From contig WKLE02000142.1 of NCBI GenBank assembly GCA_014885115.2, positions 4,741-68,740 on the forward strand: a stretch of 64,000 nt of DNA, written 5' to 3'. A program made the position numbers and the translations under genes. The first letter of the stretch is position 1. The number at the start of each line of letters is the position of its first letter. Shown piece after piece: positions 13,540-62,390 of the stretch. The notes under the pieces are model-generated. The model ran no database searches, was not told the DNA's origin, and saw only the letters and a program-made list of their open reading frames with translations. The DNA is from Asterionellopsis glacialis. Its lineage: Eukaryota; Bacillariophyta; Plagiogrammaphyceae; Rhaphoneidales; Asterionellopsidaceae.

Positions 13540-16446
13540 CTAGCGGTTTTCCTCATCATATAAAGGAGAGAGTGATCCCTGCATTTTGCGACCTGATCCC
13601 AAGCGTTCGCTTTTATTCGAAAGATGTCCAAATGCCTTTGTTCTATTTACTGAATTTTGGGCGGGTGTCCCCATGATGTTTTTACTATTACCCGCACTAC
13701 TGCGCTCCCTCAAAATTTTTTCCTTCTGTAGTTTTCGTTTTAGGTAGGCCTCTTGACGTCGAACCTTGTCTTTCAAATCATTATTCTCTTTTTCAAGTTC
13801 GGCTAGATCTTTGTTGTCGCGCTTTACGTTGCAAAGCATCATGTTGGCCTTTTCCAAGTCTGCTTCAGCTATCTCCCTTAAGTGACGTTCTCTGTGAAGA
13901 GCATCTAAAAATTCCTCTTCTTGGGTGCGCAAAGAAGATTTCAATCTGTTTAATTCATCACTTTCGTCTTCTTTCTTTACATCATGAAGCTGGTTCTCAA
14001 GCTCCGCAGAGCGAGCCCTTTCGGCTTCAAGATCAATTTCCACTTTCTTATTATGTTCGACCATGTCACCTAGTAGCGTTGTTCGCTGTTCGAGCATTTC
14101 CTCAGCTTCGGCTACTTTCTTTTTGTGAGCTTCAACCAGGGCGTGTGCTTCCGATAAATCCTTTAGAAGTTGGGCTTGCTTTTCCTGAAAACGTATGTCG
14201 TCATCTTCTTGATTTGTGCGTTCACGATCAAGTTGGCGTTCCAGTGCTTCTATTGTATTCACGTGCGCGACCCGGTTCTTCTCTTCAGCTGTTATAAGTA
14301 GATCCAACTCGACACGAAGAGTTCTTTCACGCTGTTCAAGCAATGTATTCTTTCTTGTCAAAGATGTTATAGTTGAATGCCTCTCTTGCAGCTTAAGTGC
14401 TTGTGATTTCATGTCTTCTTCAATTCTGGTCTTACAACGTTGGAGAAGAGCGAGTTCTTGCTTGAGGCTATCTTCTGACCTCTGGTGTCGCTGCCGTTCG
14501 TCGTTTAGGACTGCCTCAAGATTTGATAACTTCTTCTCAAGTTGATGAATTTTTGTTTCAAAGTCTGAGACAATTTCGGCTGCATCCATTTCATTTGAGC
14601 TGAGCTTCTGGATCAGTGATTCTATTTCTGCTTGAAGCATGACAGCTGTAGTCTCAGACTGCTTTAACTTTCCTTGTTTGATATCCCGGATTTCATTTTC
14701 CTTGTTTTCAAGTTGTGCCTCAACTTTCTGAAGATTCCGTTGCAGTCTTCTTATATCTTCTTGACTTGTCCGGGTCTTTTCTTCGAGAGAAGTTTGGAGA
14801 ATAGCAATTTGTGCTTCGTAATTTTCCAACTCACCGTCAGTAGCAGAAAGCGTTTTTTCCAGGGAGTTTACAGCAGAATGGTGCTCTTGCATATGGGCGG
14901 TAAGTTCTTCCTCTACATCGCGTTTCTCGTTTTGCAAGGTAACGATTTCTTCTCGAAGAACTTGTTGGCTGGACGACCATGATTCTTTTTCTTCCTGGAA
15001 TTTGTCTTGCATGCTTTCAATAGCTTTTTGGTTCTCCCTTTCAATACATGAACGTTTGTTTTGTTCACTTAATAAATTTCTTTCGGACTTCTTCAAGCTT
15101 TCCTCTAATTCTTTAATTCTCATACGTTCATTTTCCAGTCGTTCTACTTTTCCTCCGTAATTCTTTGTTTCCTGCCTCAGTATTATGTTGTCACTTTCCA
15201 TTCTGCAGACAGTGGCTGTTAGCTCAATCACCTCGGCTTCCTTCGCCGCCAGCTGATCCCGAAGTGTTCCACGCTCATGTTCCAGTCGCCCCATAGCATC
15301 AGCAAGGGTTGGTTCTCCGCTGTCATCCTTATCTGCTGAGTTGGACATACTCATCAATTTTTCCATGCAATTTGATATTTCTTTTTCCAGTGTTGCAACA
15401 ACCAGTTCTTTAGCCTCTACTTCAGAACGCATGTTGTTAATAGAGCCCTCGTGTACTCTCTGAAGGCTCTGGATTTTTTGTTCATATTGTTGTTCCAGGT
15501 TTTCCTGCTTTGATTCATATTCACTTGAAATCTTGCCAACATCTTCATCACGACGTTTCATCCAATCTTCAAGTTCTTGAAGGGTCTTTGTATTTTGTGA
15601 AGTTTGTTGCTGTAGCTTTAGTTCGAGCTCTTGGATACGTTCCTGGCTCCCTGAAGTGTCTTCTCTCAATTGATTCATTTCTTGTTCGTGCTCAAGTCGA
15701 AGCTTTTCTAATTCAATTTGAGCTCTTTGCTTTTCTCTTTGCCTCTCTTCGTCCTTTTCTTGTTGGGACTTTGTTAGCTTCTGGATATTGGCAAATGATG
15801 TATTAAGTGTATCTGTTAAAGCCTCGTGATCCTTCTTAAGCTTTCCTATTTGCTCTTGTAGCTGTTTCTTAGCTTCAAGGGTTTCACTCAACTCCTTCTG
15901 AACAGCTACGACATCAACAATAGCACTGTCTCTATCATTCAACTTTTGCTTTAGAGCTTCCATATCTTTCTGTAGCTGCAAATTTTTCTTACGCAGAGCC
16001 GCTCTCTCTTTCACCACATCTTCCTGCGTCTTGAAACGTCTAACGAGAGAGAGAACCTCCTTCTCTCTAACATCTAGTTGTTGTTGCACATCTTTCTTTT
16101 CTTTCTCAAGGGACTCGTTGCATGCCCAAAGAGATCTCTTCTCTTCTTCAATTGACTCCAACTTTTTGCTGGCTTCGTGGAATTTGTCATTTAAGTTGTG
16201 CAACAACTTTTCCTTTCGTTGGACTTCTTCCTCTTTTAGTTTAATTTCTTCTTCTTTTTCTTGCAACAGATCCAATAGTTCATCTCGTCCAGTGTCACCA
16301 TCTAGAATCTTGATGCGCTTCCTAAGTTCTGTAACTTCCATTTGCATACGAAAATAGTCAGCATCCTGTGATCTGCTTTTCTTCTTTCCAGATGAACCTT
16401 TCCCAGAAAAGATACCAAATCGTTTTGAACGAACATCTCCGGGCCG
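13540..16446 (-). CDS. Large coiled-coil protein, 5' end lost in assembly gap
   Basis: 968 residues are visible, almost all coiled coil: long runs of Glu, Lys, Gln, Arg and Leu with heptad spacing from the N-terminal visible part to about 50 residues before the end, and hardly any Pro. The C-terminus is basic, rich in Ser, Asn and Gly (GTPAQNSVNRTKAFGHL) and could be a short targeting or microtubule/DNA-contact tail. The first in-frame Met after the gap is at 16347, but the same frame is open back through 16446, reading KKKSRSQDADYFRMQMEV, so the true start lies in or beyond the run of N. Such proteins are typically golgins, centrosomal or kinetochore/nuclear-lamina-like scaffolds; no specific domain lets me choose. 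The C-terminal 20 residues close normally. Confidence 0.85.
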   Translation of the reverse strand, partial: RPGDVRSKRFGIFSGKGSSGKKKSRSQDADYFRMQMEVTELRKRIKILDGDTGRDELLDLLQEKEEEIKLKEEEVQRKEKLLHNLNDKFHEASKKLESIEEEKRSLWACNESLEKEKKDVQQQLDVREKEVLSLVRRFKTQEDVVKERAALRKKNLQLQKDMEALKQKLNDRDSAIVDVVAVQKELSETLEAKKQLQEQIGKLKKDHEALTDTLNTSFANIQKLTKSQQEKDEERQREKQRAQIELEKLRLEHEQEMNQLREDTSGSQERIQELELKLQQQTSQNTKTLQELEDWMKRRDEDVGKISSEYESKQENLEQQYEQKIQSLQRVHEGSINNMRSEVEAKELVVATLEKEISNCMEKLMSMSNSADKDDSGEPTLADAMGRLEHERGTLRDQLAAKEAEVIELTATVCRMESDNIILRQETKNYGGKVERLENERMRIKELEESLKKSERNLLSEQNKRSCIERENQKAIESMQDKFQEEKESWSSSQQVLREEIVTLQNEKRDVEEELTAHMQEHHSAVNSLEKTLSATDGELENYEAQIAILQTSLEEKTRTSQEDIRRLQRNLQKVEAQLENKENEIRDIKQGKLKQSETTAVMLQAEIESLIQKLSSNEMDAAEIVSDFETKIHQLEKKLSNLEAVLNDERQRHQRSEDSLKQELALLQRCKTRIEEDMKSQALKLQERHSTITSLTRKNTLLEQRERTLRVELDLLITAEEKNRVAHVNTIEALERQLDRERTNQEDDDIRFQEKQAQLLKDLSEAHALVEAHKKKVAEAEEMLEQRTTLLGDMVEHNKKVEIDLEAERARSAELENQLHDVKKEDESDELNRLKSSLRTQEEEFLDALHRERHLREIAEADLEKANMMLCNVKRDNKDLAELEKENNDLKDKVRRQEAYLKRKLQKEKILRERSSAGNSKNIMGTPAQNSVNRTKAFGHLSNKSERLGSGRKMQGSLSPLYDEENR

Positions 16447-16547
16447 NNNNNNNNNNNNNNNNNNNNNNNNNNNNNNNNNNNNNNNNNNNNNNNNNNNNNN
16501 NNNNNNNNNNNNNNNNNNNNNNNNNNNNNNNNNNNNNNNNNNNNNNN
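16447..16547. other. Assembly gap, 101 N
   Basis: 101 undetermined bases interrupt the 5' part of the coiled-coil gene. The sequence right of it (16564-16580) is a 17-nt T run, a likely cause of the break. Confidence 1.
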
Positions 16548-17159
16548 AAAAAACGGCTGTTTCTTTTTTTTTTTTTTTTTGCGCAAAAAATGGGCAGGAA
16601 AGAATAACGAACAGCGGAAAAGTTTGATCGAATCATATTTAGTCCTGTAGTTCATATTCCTACTGTCCTGTCAGCACCCGTACAGGAAATCGGATTTTCA
16701 AAAGAGCCGTTGGCTCGATATTGTATGTTGCATTCACATACAGTATACAGATCTGTTTAATTATATAATGAAAAAATGTTGGAAAATTTTATTTTTTGCA
16801 GTATAAAAGATGTTGAATGAGACAAAATATATTTGAATATCGGTTCGGCTGTTATCTGGGATGTTCTCAGGTACCTCTGACACTGGTACTGACTTTACAC
16901 ATATATGAAACACTATAGATCTACGGTAGGGTGTGGGACAGTGGACTATGTGACCGGTAGTTCTATTCCGAGAGAAAGCAGGACTCGTACGTAGGACTCT
17001 ATTGGATCTGGAAAGCCATCGACCGACCTGCGAAAAAATGCATGTTGAAAATACCATACAAAAATCGGGTTTTTACAAGACAAGTTTGAAAATACCATCA
17101 TTGTGTGATTAAGCGAAGCAAAAGCAACTAGGGTATTCCGTTGTGAACACCTGAAGACC
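16548..17159. other. Intergenic region after gap
   Basis: Holds the 5' side of the coiled-coil gene (leftward) and the promoter of the acidic membrane protein (rightward). A minus-strand ATG at 16634-16636 opens a frame running through the A tract into the gap and could be the lost start, but the homopolymer makes the frame unreliable. One GGTACC element lies near 16870. Nothing else is seen. Confidence 0.4.
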
Positions 17160-36138: not shown

Positions 36139-36635
36139 AAAAAAACATAGAAAAAATATATAAATGACTGCAACGGATGCCATCAAACTTATAAAAAATA
36201 AAAAATAATGTACAAATACAATTTATTTCAACATCGCTCAGATATCGACTTACCTGGCTCATTATATTAGTAATTGGAATCTCTAGTGTCTATCCTACCT
36301 TGATTTGTCCTCAGCTGAGGACATGATTTCATGCCCTTATGGTTGGGGTTGCCATACAGTGTGTACCAACGGTTACACAAAAAAGGGCCGACAATGGCGC
36401 TCGACGGAAATGACGACGGAAATAGATTAAAGCATTTCTACTAAAGGAATAGTTACTATTTTTATGTAGGTTGACTATGTTTGTCCTGATAGTGCTCAGA
36501 AAAGCATTTTTGTCCTGCATCGGAGAAGCATAACCATGGTGTTTTTATCACATGATTTTCTGCATTGATATCATCATTGCAACTTGAACAAACCATTGTC
36601 GTCTTCCTACTACAAATCATATACCTTCCCTGAAG
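36139..36635. other. Intergenic region before transposase relic
   Basis: AT-rich; CpG-containing up to about 36540, then CpG-poor as the relic begins. I see no gene and no clear terminal inverted repeat. Confidence 0.4.
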
Positions 36636-38439
36636 TCATTGGTTTATTAGTGTGCTGTTCCTGATCTTCCTCCTTCTCTTTCTTGGTGTCAGATGTGCAT
36701 CAATAACCAATCTTGGATCACCAGTACATGTGCATATTGCTGGGCTATCATCACCATCATGTTGGGTACTTGCTACTGGTCGTCTCCTTGCCACCCCATC
36801 AAACTCGTTATCCATAAATTCTTCTGCCAATAGGTAATAGAAGTCACTCTGTGATTCTGTCCTGCTTCCAGTGCACTGCATATAGGCCAACCATGTGTTG
36901 ACAATACAAATAGATGAAATAGAAATGCTTACTCTGAAATCCCACTTCCTGGTCTCAACTTTTTTCTCCATCATCAAAGTATCCTGCTGGTGCCTATTGT
37001 GTTGATCAATCTTTCCACACACACTATGTAATGAACTTCTGCTGCTTTTGGTTTGGGGATGGTTAACTCCACAAAGTCAGGATTGGCATCCATGGTATCA
37101 TCAACCTGTTGCCATCTTTTTCTAGTGTAAGGTGTTCCCTCCTCCAAACTTTCTGCATTCACCACAAAGTATTGCTGCTCCCTGTCCATCAAAACAAAGC
37201 TCATGATATCAACTTCCTTCTCACCTTATGCATTGTCCTCCTCTTTGTAATGACACAGTCCTTGATAATCTCCACAATTGAATAACTCAATCTTGGACAA
37301 ATGCCTCATAGGAAATGTGGTTTTGTAGACCCAACTTCTACAACTTTCTACACTTGTAAAATATGAATCAGCACACACCACAGATGCACTCTTGTCAACT
37401 GCCTCAAAATAACTGTACCATGCAACAATCCACTATCATCTTCATGCACTTGTAATGAGTGTTCATGTTCTGCAGTCTTCACCAATTTCAAACACAACAT
37501 GATTCCACGAATGCCGTCAGCTGTATTTTGTATCTCACACCCATTTTCTGGTTTGCAATCAATGACAACATAATGGGGCAACCCCATATTAATGCAATGT
37601 TCACCTATCCCATACCACCTGCTTATAGATTCATCAACACACAACCAATGTGATGGTGTATACATTTCTATGCAATGGTTATTAAAATTTGTAACAAAGT
37701 CATCATCTGTAAACCTCACTGGTCATTATTGCTGCTCTCTGTTCTGGCTAGCCTGAAAACCAAATGCAATTACTCAATGTATCATACCTCTGTCTTGTTA
37801 TTCCTGGCTTGCCAGACAATGGTGCAGGACTATACTTAAACCAGGACGTGTAAATCCACAAGGATGCTCTGGATGTAAATTCATACCCAGTGATTAAAAC
37901 ATTGTTTCCAATCCATCTAAGTATCTCACCTTTTGTTGTTCTTTTGTTGTTGGCATCCTGCTTTTCCAGTTCTCTGTTGGTCAAAGTGCAAATAAGTGTT
38001 AGTTGATCAGGTGGGAACATTAGTATAGGAAGTAATCAAGATGTGAAATGCAACCTTGGATATCTGAATTTGTAGAAAGATTAATTCCAATTGGTGATTG
38101 TACAAACCACTGCTTCCTTTGTATGTTTCCATTCACAGGCATCTTTAGCTTCAAATAATCTCTATACCATTCAAAATATTGAGTGGTACAGGCTGGAGCC
38201 TCTTCCTCTACATAATTTCAAATGGATCAAATATTCAAACTAACAGACTTAGTTCTTGTTGCATCAACACGGTTGTACAGTGCTGTTACAAAAGTTGCAT
38301 TCCTTCTAGTCCCTTCAGATCTTACGAGTTTAACCAAGGAAATCACACCAATCAACCACTTATTCTTGGCAAAACTTCCCCATCTTTGACTACATTTGCT
38401 CTCATTTGTCACATGGATGGCCTTGGTTTGTATCTGCAC
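36636..38439 (-). pseudogene. Decayed piggyBac-like transposase (DDE_Tnp_1_7)
   Basis: Conserved pieces occur in order on the minus strand but in different frames. Near 38217-38130: EEEAPACTTQYFEWYRDYL. 38020-37748: TTKGEILRWIGNNVLITGYEF and GKPGITRQRYDTL. 37719-37348: LCVDESISRWYGIGEHCIN, then GLPHYVVIDCKPENGCEIQN. 37204-36974: EEGTPYTRKRWQQVDDTMD. 37022-36636: CGKIDQHNRHQQDTLMMEKK and ETRKWDFRVSISISSICIV. These are piggyBac-type transposase motifs, including the catalytic-region DES. At least four frame changes and internal stops show it is dead. 38439-38227 may add an N-terminal part. The C-terminal Cys-rich finger is not obvious. I count about eight CpGs in 1.86 kb, far fewer than in adjacent genes. 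Confidence 0.88.
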
Positions 38440-38877
38440 TACACCTCACTATGTGAAGTGCATCCTTAATGATAGTGCTAATGCATGCATTCATGCACAG
38501 ACGGGCCAGTTGGACAGACGATGGTGAAGTGGACAGACAGACAATGATTACGTGGCAGATTGTTGGAGATGGATGGATGATGATGATGTGGCAGATTGTC
38601 GTGACATCAGCTTCACTCAAGGAATGTTGTTACGTGGTGGTCCGGTTGACTAATGGAGGTTTTACCGGTTACTAAACCTTTCCTCCAAATTATCAAACAT
38701 TACAAAAATAGAATTCTTTAAACTAGTCATAATTAATTTACATTACCAACAAACAAGTCTTCTCTTGTCTTTTGTGTAATCCCTGAGTTGATTGTCCCAA
38801 CCCAACTGCCGTGTGCACTGGCATAGGGCAGTGTCTTTCCTCCTATGGTCCTTCTAGTATTCTCTGTTGGCATGGTC
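38440..38877. other. Intergenic region right of the relic
   Basis: Short repeated phrases (GTGGCAGATTGT at two sites near 38551-38562 and 38588-38599; GGACAGAC near 38512 and 38532). No gene seen. Confidence 0.3.
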
Positions 38878-39219
38878 TAGTTCGGAGGGGGTACCAACTT
38901 TTGTAAAATGCCTGGGAGTGAATGTGCCCCCCCGAAAAGTTCGCAAGTTGGCAAAAAAAAAGTAGTTCTGATTGTTGCTTGTGTGCTGGAGGTGGATTCT
39001 TGTTCCCACCACCCTTGTTCTTAATACTGCAGCAGTAGCTAGGGTGATTGTCGTCCAATCTGATTTCGTTCCGACATGGTGTACACAGCAATCCCACGAA
39101 ATTTGCAAGTTCGCAAATTGGAAAAAGTAGTTCGGAGGGGTGCCAACTTTTGTAAATTGCCTGGGATTGAATACGCCCCCAAGAAAAACTTCGCAAATTT
39201 GAAAAAAAAATTAGTTCGG
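38878..39219. repeat. Direct repeat pair, about 90 bp
   Basis: Copies at about 38878-38970 and 39128-39219 begin TAGTTCGGAGGGG, share CCAACTTTTGTAAA and CCTGGGA, and end in a Cs-then-TTCGCAA-then-poly-A pattern followed by AGTTC(G/T)GA. A partial third tail lies at 39100-39130. They differ at several positions. Possibly a short non-autonomous element or a reiterated segment of one. Confidence 0.7.
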
Positions 39220-40098
39220 ACAGCCCCTAACAATTTACCAAAAAAAGGGGCTTGGTAAAAAATAAGGGGAACTCCTGCATGGAAATCCAGACAACAAAAT
39301 ATTTCAAAAACGTTGACCAGAGTACTCATACAAGCAGTACTACCAGGTACGTGTACCTGGTACCTGGTACCCAGGTACCAGGTACTCTATAGACTTAGTC
39401 TTATCTACGTAGTATTGAACAGCTACCTGTTACATAATAGTAGGTATTATTTAGTTGGATGGATGAATAATTTATGAAGTGACAAGCATCTTAGGTACTG
39501 TCACTGAAGTAGAGGATCTACATGTCAACATCTATAATAGTATTCTGGGATTCTGCATCAAGAATTTTTCATATCACTATTGCCCTTCAAAAGAAGATGT
39601 ACCTCCTATTAACCGTTACAAGTCGTACAGGTACTGTTTGGACTACTGTACATAGTATCACACGATTAGAAAAAACAGCAATCATAACATTATTTTTCTG
39701 TGTATCAATCATTTTTTGGACTGTTTATTGGACATTGCTCCCTTCAAGCTGAACAGAGCCCATATCCAGCAGAAGAGAACTGCACCCCGGATTCCAAAAG
39801 GAACAAGTGCGTGGTACCATGTATTATACTGTGTACCGGTACGTAATGATGTGTGCCGATTGCTGATTACCCACAGATACCCCAGGTACGAGCTGGACAC
39901 TACTTGATATTTTGTAGGATTCGAATGTCACGATAGATCTTGAAGACTCCGTCCGATTGTATCAACAAGTCCTCGTCCAAGTTTTGTCGAGGGGTACGGC
40001 TGTTGTGTTTCCGGAATCAAAAGGCTGAAAGAAGACAGAAGTACAAAGCCTCCAGTTGTAGTACAAAGATTGTTCAGACGATCATCCGAATAATCATC
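39220..40098. repeat. Intergenic region with GGTACC repeat cluster
   Basis: 39340-39385 is an almost uninterrupted series of GTACCTGGTACC / GGTACCAGGTAC units, with further single elements near 39814, 39835 and 39884. Short open frames look like chance. Confidence 0.65.
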
Positions 40099-43606: not shown

Positions 43607-46600
43607 TTAAACAACATCCTGCAAGTTCATTGTCTTTCCTGCCTCGGCAGCTGCTTCGAAGGCTGCCTTGGAACTGACAACAGCAACCGATGCATCCTTC
43701 AAATCTTTCAAACGCTGTGCGAAAGCTCTGAAGTCTTCGGCCTTAGTGTCCATAATGGCGTCGCGGTATTTTTGGCGATGTTCTGGACTTTCTCTAACAA
43801 TCCAACGGTTGAAAGCGAGCCATCCTTTCTGATCAGGGCTGAGAGCTCCATCCATGTCACCGACAGTTCCAATAATAGCTGTGGCTAAAGCATCGGGATC
43901 TTTCTCGAAATCGTCGGCCACTGCCATAAGAGCATGGTAAGTTGCATCGTATACATCAATAGTCTTGGCGAGGTTGGGGTCACGGTACGAAAGGTAGGTG
44001 AATATTCCAGAACTTGGACCGAATGTGCAGAAACCACCATAGGCACCTCCCATCACGCGAACATGGTCCCAAAGGTATCCCGTTCGGAGCCAACGTGAAA
44101 CAACAGCAGCTGATCCAGGAATCTTTTCACCAGATTCATATGCACGGCCACCCTTACCAACATAAGATACTTGAGTCGGGACTACGAAACCCTCGTCAAT
44201 AATCGGAGCCATTTCTGCCATTTCTTTCTGAGCTTGTGCTACCCATGGGTGGTCTTCTGCGTAGAAATTAGGAAGCTTATCCCCATTGGCATCGCCAGGA
44301 AGGCTATTAAGGAACGCATCAACAGATGGCTTGATGGTTTCTTGGACTACGCTGTCACCAGTAATGTCCAAGAACATGCCATCACGACATGTATTTGCAG
44401 CAAGAATTGTCTTCCTCATGTTTTCAAGGCGGCCCAGAAGAGTTGGCCAGTCATTTTGGGCTTGCTCCAATAGACTCTTCACAGTTGATAGAGCAGAAAT
44501 GCCTCCTGTCTTCTCATCGATGTATCCGGCTACACTGTAGCGAGCCTTCAGCCGAGTGTTAGCAAAAGAGTGACCACTACCTTGGATTCCAGCTTCAAGT
44601 TGAACCTTGCTCTCTTTCAGCATCTCGATGACCTTACTTTGAGAATCAAATTTGGCATCAGTGAGAATGAGCTTGAAAATATCAAATAGTTCTTCCGTTT
44701 TGTCTTTGGTGGCCTTTCCTCGAATAACGAGCTTTGTAATCATTTTAGTTCCATCAGAAGCAAGGTCTTCATCCTCGCCTTCTCCCTTTACACTTGAGGT
44801 CATGACCTGAACGCTTACACCACCGGTGTGGGTACCAATTCTTCGCGAAAGACCAACGGAATCATATTCTCCGGCTCCAGTTTCCATCATTACACGAGAG
44901 TACAGTCCAAGAAGTGGAGCATCTTCCAGTGACAAACCGGAAAGATCGATTCCGAAATTACAGTAGGCAATGCCAGATGTGGACACAAGCTCGTGACGGA
45001 CAACAGTAATTCCGGTGTCATTTTCGTTTTCATTCACTGCAATGGGATACTCGGTCACTTCACGCTTCAAGTCTCCTAGTTCAAGGCTGGGGATCGTGGC
45101 ACGTGCCTCAGGAGGATCCTCTGAAGCTTGGAGTGCCTTCAATTCTTTTGTTTTGGTAATAATGTCATCTAGCTCTGCATCACTGAAAGATTCCTTTATT
45201 TTTGCCAGTTTGTCTTTTTCTGCTTGTAATTGTTCTTCCTCAAGAGTCTTGGAAGGCACCATCTCAACAGTGGTGCGATGGGTGTTGTGAACAATATATT
45301 GCTTGATCATATCCTGGAAAATCTTCGAGCCAGACTCCGCAATTGTTGCCTTAAGCTCTGCCAGAGGCTCCTCGAACTTGAGAGCAGCGGTGGGAGATTC
45401 ATCGTACAACCACTTTGTCATTGATCCAAGCATAAAGGAGAGTCCCTTGGGGAAAGACCCAGTATTGAATTCACGCATCTACAAAATAATTTTGAGAATA
45501 ACAAAGATGTGAGACATGGAATAGAAGAAAGGATGTGAAAACTCTACTGATAGTCAACGTACCTGAAATTCGATGGTGTTCATCGATGCTGCGATAGCCT
45601 CTTCGTCGAAACCTTCTTCAGCAGCCTTCTCGAGTGTTTCGATAATTAGCTTTTCGGCTGCAGCGACATTTTCTGGCTGGACTTCCTTGAGGCCAACAGA
45701 AAAGGTTGCTTGCAACAACTCATCAGATAGTCCTCCACCAGTGATGGATGATCCAAGACCACTCTCCATGAGAGTTTTTCTCAAAATACTGGATGTTGTC
45801 CCCATGAGCAAATGATCAAGGATATTCATAGCTAATTCTTCAACAGGATTGAGAGGCGTGTCGTTCATCAACCAGTTTACTTGAATCATATGAGTCTCCG
45901 GTTGATCTGCGCCTGAGGGGTAGGGCTTCTTAACTACCTTGGGTTCTGTGTAAACTTTCTTTTGCCATTTGATTTCACTAGCGGGTTTGCTTTCCGGGGA
46001 ACGGTCAAATTCGGAAAGATATTCATCCATGATTTCCAAACGCCTCGACACATCATCGTCACCGGAAAAATAAATGCGAGAGTTTTCAGGATGGTAAAAT
46101 CTGGCATGGAAATCCGCGAACTGTTCAAACGAAAGTTCTGGAATGACGACAGGGTCTCCTCCACTGTCGACTGCGTAGGTATTATCGATGAAAAGAGATT
46201 GTTGCGAGTCACGGTTGAGAAGAGAATCAGGTGAAGAATAAACACCCTTCATTTCATTGTATACAACACCCTTGTAAGTAAGAGGCTCCGCCTTGTCTTC
46301 AAGCTCAAGGTGCCATCCTTCCTGAGCATGAACAGTAGGATCACTGGTTGCACGAGGGTGGTAAACAGCATCGGTGTACACATTGATAAGATTGTAGAAA
46401 TCCTTTTCGTTTTGACTGGCAACTACGTAGCAAGTACGATCAGGATATGTGAAAGCATTGAGGAATGTTTGAAGACTTCCTTGTAAGAGCTGCACAAAGG
46501 GATCCTTTGTCTTGTACTTGCGACTACCGCAAAGTACTGAATGTTCTAGAATGTGAGGCACACCAGTCGAGTCAGAAGGCGGTGTACGGAAAGTGATTCC

Positions 46601-47002
46601 AAATACCTTGTTATCGTCATCGCTGGAAACAGAAAGAAGTTCAGCTCCACTTTTTTTATGTCTGTAAAGAGTACAGTATGCACCATACTCTGTTACAATA
46701 TCCTTCTCAACAACTTCATAAGCTGGGTGTGTAACTTCAAGATTTTTTTCGAGATCTGCCACAGCAGCTGTACTTTGTTTCAAAGTTGTAATCGAAGAGG
46801 CCGACGATGTTCCTTTGTGAAACTGCCGTCCAAAGAAAGCAAGAGGAGATGATTTGCGTGCATGGGAAGCAGACAAAGAGAAAACACCGTTGGCACGTGA
46901 TGCGGCAGCGCCTCTTGTGCTAAAAGAGGCGAGAGAGAATGCGGTCACGGTAGTTGCAGGTCCACGACGGACAGCCATTGCAAGACACGCCAAAAGAGCC
47001 AT
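43607..47002 (-). CDS. PITRM1: Presequence protease PreP, M16C metalloprotease (2 exons)
   Basis: Degrades cleaved targeting peptides and other short unstructured peptides in the mitochondrial matrix (and plastid stroma in plants). Exon 1 is 47002-45563, intron 45562-45479 (84 bp, GTACGT donor, TTGTAG acceptor), exon 2 is 45478-43607; 1103 residues. The splice joins NTIEFQ|MREFNTGSFPKGL, a conserved PreP stretch. Zinc-binding inverted motif HILEH at about 150-154 in TGVPHILEHSVLCGSRKY. The downstream Glu is in VVYNEMKGVYSSPDSL. The second M16 half is inactive, as in the family, with RWLRTGYLWDHVRVMGGAYG near the end. The N-terminus is Ala/Arg/Ser-rich with no acidic residue over about 80 positions, fitting a mitochondrial presequence. 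I chose the Met at 47002; an earlier in-frame Met (47056) adds a hydrophobic segment and is less likely. Confidence 0.95.
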
Positions 47003-47761
47003 GTTGGCCGCGATCCTAGATTCGAAGAAAAACGCATAAAACAAGATGAGAAACATACCTCAAATACATGGTGGAGGCCCACTATCGTTGCCAGAACTAG
47101 AGCTGTAGTCCGCAAAAGTCGTCGCTGACTATCAGTTTCATGAGTCAGGCGGAATCGACGGAGGAATCGTCGTGGAGTACTCGTTGATTTACCATCGCTT
47201 CCCATGAAAGCAACCCTTTCAGGATCTGTATCCATCTCCACACGATTATTCACAACATAAACAAATTAAAAGAGGGTGTTTTATACTCTTCCGTACCTTG
47301 TTGACTTCAAAGAGTACATGAAAGGTCCGCTTGAGACTTTGTGGAAACTCAAAGCAATTTTCTAGTTTCGCGAGGTGGGTGAGCCAGATATCAAAAATAA
47401 TAATATCAGATGAGTTTGTGTGAGACGCCGATCTTCACAATCTTTCCAAAATTTATAAGACAGAATTCGAAAACTCCATTATTCAGTACCATCTTTACGA
47501 GAAAACTACTGAGACAGCGGAATTCTTTGTGCCAACTCAGTCAAGCCTGTGATGTCATCAGTCATCAGCGAATTGCAGCTGCACTTCGCTTCGACGACCC
47601 AACGCAGACGACGCTCCTGCTGGTGTTCAATAACACGAATCACCACGCACGACGAACAGTGCAAGACCAAGATACCACAATCTGACTACGATTAACGAAC
47701 GCGTGGTAACACAGGATTTTTATATTTTCTCTAAATCCAAAGGAGTGAGTAATCTCAACGT
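47003..47761. other. PreP upstream region
   Basis: Holds the PreP promoter and 5' leader. A minus-strand frame from an ATG at 47235 overlaps the PreP start in another frame and ends at 46945 (96 codons). CpG content is normal here and drops at about 47762. Otherwise nothing is recognised. Confidence 0.4.
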
Positions 47762-50700
47762 TATCTTTTCTAGAGATTTTCTTTTTTGTTGTTGTTGAGC
47801 ATCAAAAACCCTGAGAATGTTCCTCTTTGGCCCAAAAAATTAACTTGTAAATCTACAAAACAAAAACATGTAGCTTAAACCTAATTTGAAAGAATAGTAG
47901 ACCACCCAATTATTGCAGTCACTAAAATTGTTTGATGCATCTGGCCAAAACAGAGTGTGGTGATACTGTTTTCCAACTGCTGAAACAACTAGATTATGGG
48001 TGAAATAAAAGGGCTATAGGTATTACAGCATAGTGTTGGGGGTATTTCTTAATGAGTCATGTAAATTGATACTGTCACAATCACAAAATTCAATTTCTCA
48101 AACTCTTTTGTTCTTGTGTTCATCAGGATTTTCTTTGGCATCTGACTCATGATCCAAGGAAGTAATACTATCACATGGATCACATTCACTCCTCACTCTA
48201 GCAGTCAAAGAATGTTTTAGTACTCATGTGACCAAGCCCTGTTCTGTAGATATTGCATTCTGTAGAATCTAACTGGGTTCCCATTACTAATAGACAGAAT
48301 CTTGATTCCAAAGGGTATTCCTCTGTACTCTGTATTCTCCTATAAAACTTCTCTGTGCTACTAGCCAACAAGTGGTTCAAATTCTTTGTAAAGTTGGGCC
48401 TAGAGTGAGTTTTTCAAGTGCCATCTACCCATATGGAAAAGCAAAATTTTTGCTCCAAAAATATTTTTACTCTGATTTATGTCCTAGGACTCAATGTACT
48501 ATAGGGGGTCTATTATCACACGAAATGCCCCCAAGTCCTTTTAAGTGGCCACCTGGAAATCTTGTAACACCACATTAACCCACCAAAGACATAAACAATT
48601 CTCATAGAAATACATTACACATACTACCATAGTATGTAGAGACCAATACATATCCATTTTTTTGTAGTTGAATACTAAGTTGTCAAATATATTCCACAGA
48701 AATAGATGAGAAAGGATGAACATAAGAATTTTTGATAATTTTCAATGTTAGCAGGTTCTCCCACCAAGACAAGTACAACAATCAACAACATATATGTCAA
48801 ATGAAAAACACACCAAATGACACCAAATAAAGAAATATTTAATGATGAAATTGATTGCCTTGAAGAACAAGATAACTTATTATTACAATACTTTGAAGAA
48901 TAAATTACAGCCTTCATGGAAAATCATTGGTATTCAAGCCAAAGTGTAAGTCAATGTTTACTTAATCAAAGCTTGATTCTCTCCTTGTTGAGCAAGGGAT
49001 CTTTGACAAAAATTACAAAGAGAGATAATAGTAGTAAATATAAGAAGATGGTAGACTATAAAGCAGATGATTTGCAATTTTAGGTAGATAATGAAGTCAT
49101 TGTAACTTATCACTGGGACTGTAGTGCTGAGAACATTGGAAAAGGGGCTTTAAGCTTCAACTACATGAGAAATCATGCTACTATTGATCATATGAGAACA
49201 GATCAAATTGAAAACAATAATATTCAAACAATACTTTTCTAACTTTGTTCACCCTGTTATGCTAATTTGAGTTGTCATTAAAAGAGTATGCACAGCAAAG
49301 AGATCATGTAGAATTTAAGAGGAGCAGCAGCTCAGATATCAAGTGAAATATGATAGTACAAAACTTTACTAATGTTGGCAAAGCATGATGAAGTCCAAAA
49401 GTCTTCCTATTGTCTGATATAGACATGTTGTGTTCTTTGCTAATGAGATGAAGAAGTTTGGTATCCAATGGTCTTTTGCTGCATTAACAAAAGATACAGT
49501 AGTGTGTGACCCGGCCCTAGAAAATATGAACACACCTCATTTTTTATAGTACTACAAAATAAACAAAATAACTAAATGGATCAGTACTGTCAATATATAT
49601 ATATATATACTGGGAGAAACATTGTTGCAGAAAAATTAATTGGTCAATTTTTTCAATTCAATTTTTTATGTCTTTTTATTTTTTGTTTAATAAATAATAA
49701 GTTGGTCAACAACACTCAACTTGTGGATCAAAGAACAGGTGATAGAACCCAATTATTCACAACTGTCATCATGATTTCAATTAGGACTTAGTAAGAATAT
49801 ATGAAATGACAATCAAAATGATGCCTTTGTAATATTTTATTAGTAATAAATTTTTCTTTGATGAAAATGGCTCTGCAACAATGTTCTGAGGTCTATAAAA
49901 AACAATTGTATATCATGGAAAGGTTATAGATGCCAAAATCAAAAGACATATTATTCTCATCATTTGGAGGATACTATGTCTCAGGAAGCAGCAGCAAAAG
50001 GAAATTCTTCATGAATATTCATAACAGAGAAGGAGACTTTTATTATTGTTCCACAAAAGGGATATTACCATTTCTACACAAGAAGTTTTTTTAGAGAGCA
50101 AAGCAAGATGATGAAGTACTGAGAAGGGATCAGAAGAAAAATTCTTGGTATAGTCAATGATAATTCTTGGAAAAACTCTTGTTGATAGAGGAGGGTACAT
50201 TTAGTGACAAAATTAATGAAGCACTCATTTTAATACCCAAAATATTTCAACAAAGTATAATATATGAAACACTGTGGTAAGTTAGTCATACAACAACCAT
50301 ATATCCAGCAGTAGGGTATAACATAACATTTAATAAGCAGGAAATAACACAGTGAACACCATACAATTGACTGGGGTAGCTAAGAAAGTATGTCATGCTT
50401 GTTTAAGCATTTGGTTATACATGTTGAATTCTTGTAATGAGAATCAAGTAAAACTTTTACTGTTTATTGGGAGCAACAGGAAGCTCAAAAAGTAGCAAGA
50501 ATTATCATCTAGAATTAGCCAAACATTGTTTTGTCCCCTTGTTTCATTTATTCTAAATAAATACAATTGCTTAGAAAATGGTTAGAATTCTTTTACGGGA
50601 TAACAGTTTGTTAGAATTTCAGAATTTATCATTGGTATTGAACAGCACAATCTTGGAACCCAGAAAAAATCTAACATAGTCATTCACAGGTCTTCATGCT

Positions 50701-53700
50701 TCTTTTGGTCTACCTAAAGCTTCATTTTAAAGAATACTTATAAGAAATTTCCAAGGGAGAGGGAAGCCACTTTGTGACAAGTTCCTTTGTTTTGTTCTTT
50801 AGGAGAACATGCAATCATGACACCAAAGAGGCAGATGTCTTCTTTTATTTGCTTCTTGTTGTGTAGCAGTAGTAGTCAAAGAAAAACTTGACATGCATGC
50901 ACATTCCTTTATATTCAAAGGTTCTATTTGTGTTCAAGAACTTGGAGACAAAAACAATAACAAATAAAGAGATCCAGCAGGTCATATTTATCACCCTTGT
51001 TCTTGTTGAAGATATCAGTATAGTACTAAGTATGGTGTTGTCACTATTCTATGTCACAAATGATATTTATAGTCATATTTTTTTGGATACTTTCATTTCT
51101 GATCTTGATCTTTGAGTTGATATTTTTTGTAATATCAACCAGCATATTTTTGTTACAAAAGTAATTTCAGTGTTGGTCATGTAACTCTATTAGTAACTCA
51201 TGTTTTGGGGGCAAAAAGGAAAGAAATAGAATAATTTGGTGCACAATAGAAACAAGTGGAGTTCTTTCCCCCCTTTTAAATTTTTTTCTGTCCCATAAGT
51301 TCATATTTGAACAAACACTGTAGTATCATTGCAGGATGAAAATTATAAATCAATCCAAGAAATCTTTGTTCATTCATTGATTCATCACCTGGTGAAGCAG
51401 AGTTGATTTGAGCAGAAAATATTGGATAATTGCTTAGTTTTTAGGTTTGTTTACAAGAGTAGTTTGTTTAATAAAACTCATAATTTGTTTTCCACCATAG
51501 TAGTCTCTTAATATCAGAATTATTGCTTCTTCTATCTTCTATCATATTGCCTTATTAAGCTACCAAATTTGCAGACATTTCTCACAATTATTTCAGAATG
51601 TAAATTTTTTTTCTTATTGTCTTTACCACATTCTCAATTCTCAATCTTAATGATATGCCAGCAATCATCACAATTCACACTGATTCTGACACTGTCATCC
51701 CTACCAAAAATCTAAAGATGGCTTACAAAAACTATCTGATCATCTTTATTCATATTCAGGTCTCTAAAATCTGTGAGCTTAAATTCTCTACCAACTTTGG
51801 ATGTTCATTTGAAAAGCTTGTTGAAGCATATATTCCTAAGTAGAAATATCCTGCTTTGATAATGTGCTGTTGCTTCCCTTCTAAAAACAACATTTTGAAT
51901 CTCTATTTCCATACCTCTAAAGTTAATATGTTGACAACAAAAACTAAGATTATGCTCTTATAAGAAAAAGACTGCTTCCTTCTTGTCATCATGCATAATG
52001 ACAAAACACAAGCATGATAAAACTGCTCAACAAAACATGCCTAAATGTGTATTGTGTATCATCATGTCTTCTTTACAGTTTTAGTATTTCCTACTCCAAC
52101 TTGGCATTTAATTGGCATTTTGGACATTGGTGATGAGCACAGGCATGGTGTTATGTATGTTACTGATAGGACATAAAAAGCATGTGTAGCTATTGTTGTC
52201 ACATCAAATCAAAAACGTTTCTCAGTTCAAGCTTGGAATTTTGGGTATTAGTAAAAAAGGCAATATTTCTTATTAATGCAAGTAGAAATAGTCATCTTAT
52301 TAGACTTTTGGAATCACATAGGATTTCAAGCAAAAGAAGAGGGAAAGAAGACACTAGAGCAATAATTCAGATAAGTAGAAAGCACTCCATTTCAAAATTG
52401 TCAAATGACAAGGATAAAAAAAGGTGAAGTAAAAGTTTATTCAAGATTACAAAATTTTATTTTGTTTAAATTAATTCAATTTTTAGAGATTGAATATACA
52501 CTAATGATATAGGAAAATATTAGCAAGCAATCCTGTAGTCAGGAATTATTAGGAGTATGTGATACTGTCAATGGCTTCTATAAATGTTTATTTTTTATAA
52601 ACTGTACTCAAAATGTTCTCACAAGTGTTGACTGTGTGACATGAGGATCATTGCTCTGTGACAACACCATGACTGGTATCTTCTTTCAACATGCCTTCAT
52701 TATGATATTCTTTATAGCAGCAAAAACAAATCCTTTCTTACAGACAGTACAAGCATATACCAGCACTTTCTTTTTATTTTCCTCTGAACAAACAAAAGTG
52801 ACAAGTCAATAGGCACCCTTATTGTTTAATATTTCAACCAGTGTATGGGAATGATTATTCAATCCATGGAACACATTATTAGGAACATTGTTACCTCTTG
52901 GAACAGTCAAGTTGTGTTGAAGTGTGTGACACTTCAGCTATAATACAACAATGCTTCTTTTGAATTTAGAAAACTCTTTTATCTAATATATTTCCTCCTT
53001 CCTGGGCCCCTAAATCAATCTCTTAATAGAGAATCAAATGCCTAATAATAATTAAATAAATCCATAATTTATGTAAAAACAGACAAAGCCTCCCTTCTTT
53101 CCTATTTGTTGGCTCAGTAGTATGCTGATCTTCATTTGATCTAGTGCACTGTAAATATGCACTTTTTTTAAAATTATATTACAATTACATTATTTATCAT
53201 AGTTTAGGTAGGTCCTATCTAAGTTATTCTGATAACATTAGAGCATAGCAGTACCATATCATCTCTAATAAACTTTAGTGGTATGTAAGATACAACAGCC
53301 ACTGGATCATTATGCCCTTGGACTATAGGAGGCCTAAACACATGTTAAGACCTACTTGTGGAGTACTACCACTTTTTGATTTATTTCTAGAAAGATCATT
53401 TAAAAGCACAAGTATTGCTTCTGCTGTGCCATATTAGTGGGGTACTTAATGTCTCACAGTTGTGACTACTGTGATACAGATGTGCGAGTAGTATTTATCA
53501 ATTGGTAGGGGGTCTTTTATCTTGAGAAAATGCACTCTTAGTCTTTTCAAAGTCAGAATATGCACTTGGTGAGTGAGAAAGTATCTGCAATATCACTCTT
53601 TTTGTAGTATCCTTTATTTTCTCTTAGAAATTTTATTAAAAGTTCCTTTTTTGGGCCAAGATATGTCTACATGTAAAATTTAGGTCTACTATATTCACTT

Positions 53701-54052
53701 CTTCCTCCTTTCTTTTGGTTTGAGAGTGATGCTTGTCCACTGACCTATACAATCACAGAACAAAAAGGCACAAAAAAAAGCCAAGAAGAGAACACCACCA
53801 TAGCATACCATGTCCTTCATATTCTTCTCCTCCCAATTGGACAAATGGTCTTGTTTGCTAGTTTAAATAGATATAAATTTTACTTCTCTCTTGCTTTAAA
53901 TAAGTATTTACTGAAGCATACAAGTGCTGGTGCTTTTTATAGTTGTCAGCATTATCTTATTTCTGAACAACTGTTGGTTGATAAGACTGGCTGGTCAATC
54001 ACTGGCTGGTCAATCCCATACATCATCAGCATCCTCCCTTCTTACACTACTG
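47762..54052. mobile_element. Gene-free, CpG-depleted AT-rich block, probable ancient methylated transposon
   Basis: About 6.3 kb without a coding frame above 85 codons that has family resemblance. I read every line for CG and find five (near 48522, 49511, 50597, 52217 and 53485), whereas GC is frequent and flanking DNA is CpG-rich. TpG and CpA are common, as expected from deamination of methylated CpG. Other content: a TA run at 49593-49609 and many poly-A/T tracts. A 43-bp stretch starting TAGGGGGTCT at 48502 has a diverged copy at 53506, 5004 bp later in the same orientation, which could be all that remains of long terminal repeats. No transposase or reverse transcriptase motif survives. 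The transposon reading is inference. Confidence 0.6.
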
Positions 54053-55085
54053 GCGATGGCTTCAGCAGGAAGAAGGGACATGATTATGGTTCAAATAAAT
54101 GAAGAAGAACAAGTAAGAGAATACAAATGTGATAAGAACAAAATGAGAGGTCTTTTGAGAGCAATCAATGGCTGAAAATTATTTTTTGAAGGTGTAGTAA
54201 AAGGTCCAACATACTGTATGAGCCATGCCAAAAATATTTGCAGAAAATTGTTTTTGTTTTTTGAGAGTGGATTGTTTGAGAGCCTGACATCCACCCATTC
54301 CAGGTGCAGACCAAAAACAAAAATCGTGGGAATGCTAAGATGATTTCTGAGAGTTTTTTGGTTAGCCACTAATCAAACGAGAGAAAGCAACAATTTTGTC
54401 GTAATCAATGCAGTTTGAAAATTATTTCATGAACGCATGGCTCACGCATGCTCGTAATCGTACTCCAGTGAAGTTGAAATACATTAGGAATAAGAATATC
54501 ATGTGATTCACCCAAAAATGAAGGATGTATCAATGGGTAATGAGCCAAATTGAAGTTCTGTGATGTGTGTCTTTTTGGAATCTCTTTCTCAGCCGCAAAC
54601 TCCATCAGATTCAATTTCAATCACACTTCAAACTGACGTACTTTCTAGAGATATTTGCCGGCCTGCTCATATCGTCAACTCTGACGCTGTCTTATTTATC
54701 CACTATCGCTGGAAATGCAGTTTTGTTTCTACAACTGTTTTTCGTAGAAATTTACTGCATTTTCCATTCCAGCCATGATTGCTCCAAAAATCTGTTAAAT
54801 AGAATACTGGTACGTCAGATCGAAGAATGTACATAACATCCAATCAAACACAGTTTTTCTATTTCAATACTATTTCCTACGAATAGGGTACATCAGAATC
54901 TTTTGGAATTGTTTTCTATTATGATGCTTTGTAGAATTCTACATCAGAATGGAATATCCAGTTTCAACTTGAGGTCGTTCGATACCTTAGAGATCCGCAG
55001 CCGCATAAAAATTTCTCCGGCACAAACGTGTCTTTCCTGTTTTTCCGTTGGTTGCCCAGAGCAAGAAGACGAACCCTTCCAAACC
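54053..55085. other. Upstream region of bZIP gene
   Basis: CpG content returns abruptly at about 54300-54460. Short open frames at 54560-54836 overlap each other in two phases and show no motif. The frame of the bZIP gene is open from 54903, but that part is not protein-like. Confidence 0.4.
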
Positions 55086-55892
55086 ATGGCGACCGTTGCC
55101 CCTCTCCCACAACTGCTAAACGACGCACCTAATATGCAAGATCCCTCTGCGTTGGCACGAAAACGCCGACGTGAAATCATTCAGTCACAAAGAGCTGCTG
55201 TAGTACCCGTCCCTGATGTACCGGTATCTGCATCCTCTTCGGTTCTCTCTAATGGAGAGGCTGCGCGCAAGAAACCGAAAACTTGCGCCAGTGCAGAAGC
55301 CATCACGGTGACGAACCAGCAACGAGAAGTATCCATTAAAACTTCTACGACATCTAGTGCAAAACCTGCCAGCAAAAACACTTCCAAAAAGGCCACAAAG
55401 AAATCTGGAGCGGCTAAAAAACCGCAAATGAAGTATGATCCAGATGTGCCCATGACAAAGGAAGAAGCAGCAGTTTGGAGAAGAGAGCAACGGCGCAAGA
55501 GAAACAGGGAAAGTGCAGCGGCTTCGCGACAACGTCAACGAGACCGCATTGCAGAACTCGAAGTCGAGCGTGATGAGTGGAAGAAAAACTTCGAACAGGT
55601 CATGCTCAAACTACATCAGCTTGAAGAAGAGACTGGAATTTCTTCTTCTGCATCTGATTTGCCCATTCAAACAACTTCTATGTCTACCGCAGAATCGGAG
55701 AAGACGATTGTCTCACCATCTTCTTCTCCAGAGGTATCCCCTCGACCCTCACCCTCATGTTCACCTATTGCATCTTGTTCTCTTCTTGACACAGGCAGAA
55801 TCTTGGAAGAAGTCCCAGGCCAGGAACATCATATCTTCGAGAAAGAGGAAGAGAAACAGCTCCTAAATAAGATGATCTCTCGACCAGCATAG
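55086..55892 (+). CDS. bZIP transcription factor
   Basis: 268 residues from the ATG at 55086 in ACCATGG context; the frame is open 61 codons further upstream without matching character. Basic region at about 131-155 (EQRRKRNRESAAASRQRQR), with the invariant N-x7-R as N140 in NRESAAASR. The zipper follows from about 155 to 181 with hydrophobic heptads (IAELEVERDEWKKNFEQ, then VMLKLHQLEEE), shorter than in many bZIPs. N-terminal half Ala/Lys/Ser-rich with basic patches (ARKKPK, KKATKKSGAAKKP) that suit nuclear import; C-terminus Ser/Pro-rich. Binds ACGT-core DNA sites as a dimer. TGACGTCA sites in this window are of the class it could bind, but no link is shown. A possible further exon lies downstream (56217-56492). 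Confidence 0.9.
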   Translation: MATVAPLPQLLNDAPNMQDPSALARKRRREIIQSQRAAVVPVPDVPVSASSSVLSNGEAARKKPKTCASAEAITVTNQQREVSIKTSTTSSAKPASKNTSKKATKKSGAAKKPQMKYDPDVPMTKEEAAVWRREQRRKRNRESAAASRQRQRDRIAELEVERDEWKKNFEQVMLKLHQLEEETGISSSASDLPIQTTSMSTAESEKTIVSPSSSPEVSPRPSPSCSPIASCSLLDTGRILEEVPGQEHHIFEKEEEKQLLNKMISRPA

Positions 55893-62226: not shown

Positions 62227-62390
62227 GATAGACTTTTAGAAAGAAGTCTTGTCATTTCAAGGTTTCTAATAAAGCAACTTCATACGCTTTGATAATGCTT
62301 TCAAAACCGATAGACTTTTAGAAACAAGTCTTGTCATTTCAAGGTTTCTAATATAGCAAATTCATACTCTTTGGTAATGCTTTCAAAACC
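62227..62390. repeat. 82-bp tandem duplication
   Basis: Two head-to-tail copies, 62227-62308 and 62309-62390, both starting GATAGACTTTTAGAAA and sharing AAGTCTTGTCATTTCAAGG and AATGCTTTCAAAACC. They differ at about eight positions, so the duplication is not recent. Confidence 0.9.

Follow-up and report, generated by a model that had tools for sequence, protein, structure and literature searches.

The CpG-depleted block and its setting

A block almost free of CpG lies between two divergently oriented genes in a 64,000-nucleotide stretch of the genome of the diatom Asterionellopsis glacialis (assembly GCA_014885115.2, contig WKLE02000142.1, positions 4,741 to 68,740 of the forward strand; hereafter the window, in which all coordinates below are counted unless a locus is named). 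An initial annotation had counted five CpG dinucleotides between positions 47762 and 54052, and exactly five were found in these 6291 bp (at 48521, 49512, 50596, 52216 and 53485). The strand-symmetric observed/expected ratio (O/E) of CpG was 0.03 in the block as opposed to 0.83 in all three segments that flank it, while the corresponding ratio of GpC in the block was normal (0.97), as the initial annotation had implied in describing GC as common. The TpG/CpA ratio was 1.33 in the block and 1.15–1.18 in the flanks, indicating a compensating excess of these dinucleotides.

Mononucleotide shuffles of the block (n = 500) contained 165.8 ± 10.6 CpG (minimum 138), and O/E was at most 0.10 in 23 of 23 overlapping 500-bp windows within the block. 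The longest run without CpG was 1620 bp in the block and 206 bp elsewhere in the window, when both CpG-poor blocks of the window (the second is described below) and a 271-bp gap at the right edge of the first are set aside. The block, with a GC content of 0.325, was the longest of the CpG-poor blocks seen and among the most AT-rich. However, AT-matched 500-bp windows outside both CpG-poor blocks (GC at most 0.37, n = 22) were CpG-normal or only mildly low (O/E 0.30–1.39, versus 0.03 for the block), and AT-richness was therefore ruled out as the cause of the CpG loss.

Likelihood fits placed the left edge of the block at 47760 (support 47703–47800) and the right edge at 54325 (support 54276–54378), approximately 270 bp past the limit first given. 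The abruptness ascribed to both edges was thus seen as described on the left, whereas the right edge was slightly less abrupt and better placed near 54325. No N was present within the block or at its junctions. The block and its neighbours are as follows.

45554..47059, minus strand: open frame of an M16 (presequence-protease-like) peptidase, upstream side facing the block
47060..47761, no strand: CpG-normal DNA (O/E 1.13) from the M16 frame to the block, presumed promoter/5' region
47760..54324, no strand: CpG-depleted block in its fitted limits, 6 CpG in approximately 6.57 kb, no second copy detected
54325..55085, no strand: CpG-normal DNA (O/E 0.91) from the block to the next gene, presumed promoter
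55086..55892, plus strand: gene oriented away from the block

Among the best 120 of 2043 matches of the M16 peptidase, the top named ones were to diatoms, with Cylindrotheca and Eucampia labels. The gene on the right contains a basic region, recognised by eye, that is presumably of the bZIP type. The distance from the block to the M16 frame is approximately 0.7 kb and that to the ATG of the right-hand gene approximately 0.76 kb; the CpG-normal DNA on either side may represent promoters that remained unmethylated.

Content of the block and other CpG-poor DNA in the genome

The absence of a gene from the block, as first described, was confirmed. The longest stop-to-stop frame (125 amino acids) did not stand out from those of 100 shuffles, whose longest frames averaged 94 and reached 155 at most, and no Pfam family, hence no mobile-element domain, was matched in six frames at E ≤ 1. 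A coding remnant was rejected on these results, and a known RNA was rejected because no Rfam family reached its gathering threshold in the whole window.

The proposal of the initial annotation that the block is an old transposon or cluster, with absence of repeat copies elsewhere counting against it, remained unproven. No second copy was detected in the assembly with the whole block or, at E ≤ 10, with 47762–50000 and 51900–54400 as queries, the part 50001–51899 being searched solely within the whole-block query; since the search tool skips very common words, the evidence for uniqueness is strong but not absolute. In tblastn searches, 12 Copia frames of the same genome matched neither the block nor the CpG-poor block at 36.4–38.9 kb, while the known Copia copies L023 and L028 were recovered, and a Copia remnant was rejected accordingly. 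A pair of long terminal repeats (LTRs) was likewise rejected, direct similarity between the block ends being no better than in shuffles, and no 9-mer was shared by the block edges as a target-site duplication (the test covered duplications of 9 bp or more). Two 24-nt arms that pair imperfectly in inverted orientation, at 21 of 24 positions, were found near the block ends.

47827..47850, plus strand: left arm of the inverted pair
53636..53659, minus strand: right arm of the inverted pair

This pair was equalled in 1 of 200 shuffles of 500-bp ends, 6 of 200 shuffles of 1500-bp ends and 34 of 200 shuffles of 3000-bp ends, and it may be all that is left of a terminal inverted repeat, for which it is a weak candidate, or a product of chance. 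The block is not assigned to a transposon family, because tests of copy number and domains revealed neither a further copy nor a domain; a transposon origin is nevertheless plausible.

Contrary to the view that CpG loss is limited to this block, similar loss was found in a second block of the window that the initial annotation had missed (8 CpG in 1875 bp, O/E 0.11), in the loci L045, L048 and L050 and in many Copia-type copies. The second block is a dispersed repeat and is followed by two younger ones.

36560..38434, no strand: second CpG-poor block, with relatives on at least 7 other contigs (75–87% identity)
38435..38831, no strand: younger dispersed repeat of approximately 396 bp, with about 35 full or partial copies listed (79–92% identity), O/E 0.45
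38969..39231, no strand: further younger dispersed repeat of approximately 262 bp, O/E 0.70

The 44 matches listed for 36560–38434 included long ones on other contigs at the above identity, and O/E in seven fetched relatives was 0.00–0.13 over the matched pieces. This family is the best material for dating CpG decay.

Windows of 500 bp with O/E below 0.25 accounted for 16 of 127 usable windows in the whole window and for 14 of 190 in ten 10-kb stretches elsewhere in the fragmented assembly (40.3 Mb, 1503 contigs), where they occurred in 3 of the 10 stretches. The latter (L040–L047, L049 and L050, one of them on the window's own contig) were chosen by hand rather than at random, i.e., contigs C597, C398, C368, C466 and C664 from DNA methyltransferase (DNMT) or Copia matches, C627 from a Copia match and C117, C700 and C333 arbitrarily; L048, chosen for being CpG-poor, was excluded from the 190 windows. 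Judging from this small, non-random sample, several per cent of the genome probably consists of CpG-poor blocks. Dispersed repeats are also contained in the CpG-poor DNA of L045, L048 and L050 (20, 41 and 70 matches, respectively, selves included), and other CpG-free blocks of the genome were repeats with a GC content similar to that of the main block. Given such stretches elsewhere, the block, although striking, exemplifies a process already known and is not one of a kind.

At least 50 matches to Copia-type reverse transcriptase (RT) were present in the assembly. In the 30 loci fetched, two of which (L011 and L038) include N, O/E for the match together with its flanks ranged from 0.11 to 1.28, with medians by our own tally of approximately 0.40 for 16 loci with stops in the RT and 0.76 for 14 loci without.

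Several further observations were made on repeats and assembly. An approximately 600-bp repeat with 32-bp inverted ends, resembling a miniature inverted-repeat transposable element, lies at L050:4614-5210 and on many contigs. At L048:4295-5041 (G000:C179), a Copia RT with stops lies in CpG-normal DNA and starts directly beside a CpG-free block, so that CpG state does not follow repeat identity at this site. Within the window, an 82-bp unit occurs in two tandem copies that are 93% alike (62227–62390), and an assembly gap (a 101-base run of N) interrupts an otherwise open coding frame in 16001–17000.

Decay between repeat copies and the methyltransferase genes

If each copy of a repeat loses CpG independently by C-to-T changes on either strand, a lost site should appear as TG in one copy and as CA in another. 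In the 36560–38434 family, 26 of 26 alignments had TG/CA exchange as the most frequent of seven double-transition classes (28 pairs were possible, two of which gave no alignment of at least 400 bp), and in the best pair, between the window copy and L051, there were 19 TG/CA exchanges and none in each of six control classes. Exchange of TG and CA was also the top class in 7 of 8 Copia pairs. The result for the 36560–38434 family means that a given ancestral CpG was lost through one strand in some copies and through the opposite strand in others. The excess of CpG transitions over other C transitions, estimated as a lower bound that assumes independent loss in each copy, was 16–30 fold in 10 pairs of the 36560–38434 family and 7–9 fold in 4 decayed Copia pairs, the pairs having copies in common. 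In the closest pairs, transitions were no commoner at CHG than at CHH sites, and no strand clustering of losses was detected in six runs tests on Copia pairs (p 0.10–0.94). The random order of TG and CA losses favours site-by-site deamination and speaks against strand-wise bursts. In addition, O/E was graded from one copy to the next, with other substitutions building up alongside.

The composition of the block itself was compared with simulated decay (one run per rate, at rates of our choosing). The simulation reached a GC content of 0.325, a CpG O/E of 0.03 and a CpA ratio of 1.33 near t = 0.4 (non-CpG C-to-T changes per site), provided that CpG mutated at 40–80 times the rate of other C, whereas rates of 5–10 times fell short. 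Simulated O/E reached plateaus of 0.07–0.09 at a rate of 20 and 0.15–0.20 at a rate of 10; since only five CpG were counted, the claim is limited to a CpG rate of about 20 times or more. Sister copies would be hard to find at such an age, which reconciles a unique block with an old transposon without proving the latter. In Phaeodactylum, the GC content expected at equilibrium from mutation only is 31.2% (PMC6604790), and the block, at 32.5%, looks like DNA at mutational rest.

Eight matches to the cytosine methyltransferase family PF00145, representing approximately six genes by our own reading, were found in the genome. The sole Protein Data Bank match of L006 and L008 was chain 7r76, which was deposited as 'DNA repair protein Rad8' and which we take to be Cryptococcus Dnmt5; on that identity, L006 and L008 would be two DNMT5-like genes. 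The gene at L003/L007 (G000:C398:26873-30920) contains a DNMT1-like catalytic domain behind a chromodomain-like stretch that scored 24.9 bits, just below the Pfam cut-off of 25.1. This layout has been reported for some diatom DNMT4 (PMC9998398), and L003/L007, as a putative DNMT1/DNMT4-like enzyme, may connect histone marks to DNA methylation. The remaining matches were L004/L005, L002 and L009. Two genes of the UDG superfamily were also present; because the search does not resolve TDG or MBD4, nothing follows from these concerning lost thymine repair as a reason for the high CpG rate.

Explanations of the CpG loss and comparison with known systems

It is quite probable that long-term CpG methylation followed by deamination caused the CpG loss of the block. 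The mechanism given in the initial annotation, i.e., conversion of CpG to TpG or CpA, is of the right class, in view of the TpG/CpA excess of the block, the footprint in dispersed repeats, which show the same loss in place and independently in each copy, and the methyltransferase genes. On this reading, a very old non-coding insertion, probably transposon-derived, would have come to lie between the two divergently read genes and would have been kept CpG-methylated by the host like its other repeats. Deamination of methylcytosine would then have converted nearly all CpG to TpG or CpA, while the remaining sequence, free of selection, would have drifted toward an AT-rich mutational equilibrium and sister copies would have disappeared or diverged past recognition. 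The sharp edges may be methylation boundaries, methylation having ended where the CpG-normal DNA before each gene begins.

Several points weigh against this explanation. The methylation itself is deduced from the sequence. The block has no second copy, unlike the four other CpG-poor blocks searched, and it has no protein domain in six frames, no similarity to the 12 Copia frames of the genome, no LTR-like end pair and no 9-mer shared by its edges. In one Copia pair (L010/L013), TG/CA exchange was not the top class (3 versus 4), and the CpG excess was only 2.4–2.6 fold in three Copia pairs of which one or both members have long open frames. Furthermore, of the 14 Copia loci that lack RT stops, 3 also had a low O/E (0.25–0.42). 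Thus, CpG loss and coding decay track each other imperfectly.

Active mutation of CpG in silenced repeats, resembling fungal repeat-induced point mutation (RIP) rather than passive deamination, would account for the unusually high CpG excess (at least 16–30 fold in the repeat family and about 20 fold or more for the block), and the genome does contain DNMT1/4-like genes, one of them with a chromodomain-like stretch, while diatom DNMT4 is described as akin to the RID enzymes of RIP (PMC9998398). The block would on this account have been repeated once or have been hit by spreading. However, losses in the Copia pairs were not clustered by strand, O/E was graded from copy to copy with other substitutions accumulating too, and the block is unique in the assembly whereas RIP acts on repeats; we consider this account unlikely. 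A low-GC maintenance region such as a centromere, in which CpG loss would be a by-product of silent chromatin, fits a unique, gene-free, AT-rich block and was judged quite unlikely. Maintenance of episomes in diatoms depends on about 500 bp or more of low-GC DNA, at approximately 28–32% GC (PMC4976089), and low GC served to place Phaeodactylum centromeres (PMC9266582); the block is longer than 500 bp, and 8 of its 580 sliding 500-bp windows were at or below 28% GC as compared with 0 of 5612 in the rest of the window. These eight are nonetheless a small part of the block, other CpG-free blocks of similar GC content are repeats, and low GC as such does not predict a TpG/CpA excess. Being near mutational equilibrium, the composition of the block needs no function to explain it.

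Foreign DNA of viral or organellar origin, CpG-poor and AT-rich before its arrival, would explain the sharp edges and the low GC content, which is close to the 33–35% of diatom organelle DNA (figures for Phaeodactylum, PMC6604790). Such an origin is very improbable given the lack of any protein domain in six frames, the TpG/CpA excess, which is a signature of decay, and the same CpG loss in endogenous repeats. An assembly chimera or contaminant might be suspected in so fragmented an assembly, but the block and its junctions contain no N and CpG-poor DNA of this class lies beside CpG-normal DNA on many contigs, making an artefact most improbable of all.

Methylation followed by deamination is an already known process; what is notable here is the depth of the loss and the apparent CpG rate. 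A stronger and rather unlikely proposition is that CpG transitions in silenced DNA proceed at 20–50 times the rate of other C because methyl-CpG is either actively mutated, by a RIP-like DNMT4/RID-related chromodomain enzyme, or hardly repaired. If so, the rate would be well above that implied by vertebrate-like CpG depletion, methylation would destroy its own targets and erase transposons, and CpG-free blocks such as the present one would be left as permanent scars, closed to further methylation. Short of this, deamination of methylated CpG would imply, from sequence alone, that repeats of this diatom were kept CpG-methylated over long periods, and would give a rough lower bound on the speed at which methylated CpG decays in it. 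A block without CpG also raises the question of whether, and by what, such DNA can still be silenced. No CpG-free blocks in diatoms were reported in the titles and abstracts listed by the literature searches, which mostly covered work outside subscription journals.

Methylation in diatoms, according to published methylomes, is mainly at CpG and located on repeats (PMC5124317, PMC9998398). In Cyclotella cryptica, Phaeodactylum tricornutum, Thalassiosira pseudonana and Fragilariopsis cylindrus, CpG-methylated silent repeats lie beside unmethylated gene-rich DNA and DNMT5 is present (PMC5124317, PMC9998398), and loss of DNMT5a removes most methylation in Phaeodactylum (PMC9998398). Unlike those repeats, the present block is known from its mutational scar alone, without a repeat copy. 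The low-GC centromeres of diatoms and their sequences for episome maintenance are likewise unique, AT-rich and gene-free (PMC9266582, PMC4976089), although CpG loss and TpG/CpA excess do not appear to enter the definition of such DNA in these reports. Fungal RIP also leaves C-to-T damage in repeats and is associated with a RID-clade DNMT (PMC4352252, PMC9998398), but here the target is CpG rather than CpA, strand clustering is absent and the block is not repeated. In basidiomycete fungi and Tuber, a C-to-T bias at CpG in transposons has been attributed to deamination of methylcytosine (PMC4352252); the methyltransferases and lineage are different, and the loss in the block reaches an O/E of 0.03. 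The same chemistry underlies the genome-wide depletion of vertebrates, in which CpG is approximately five-fold below expectation (PMC9624357), whereas in A. glacialis the loss is restricted to silent blocks and is much deeper (approximately 30-fold).

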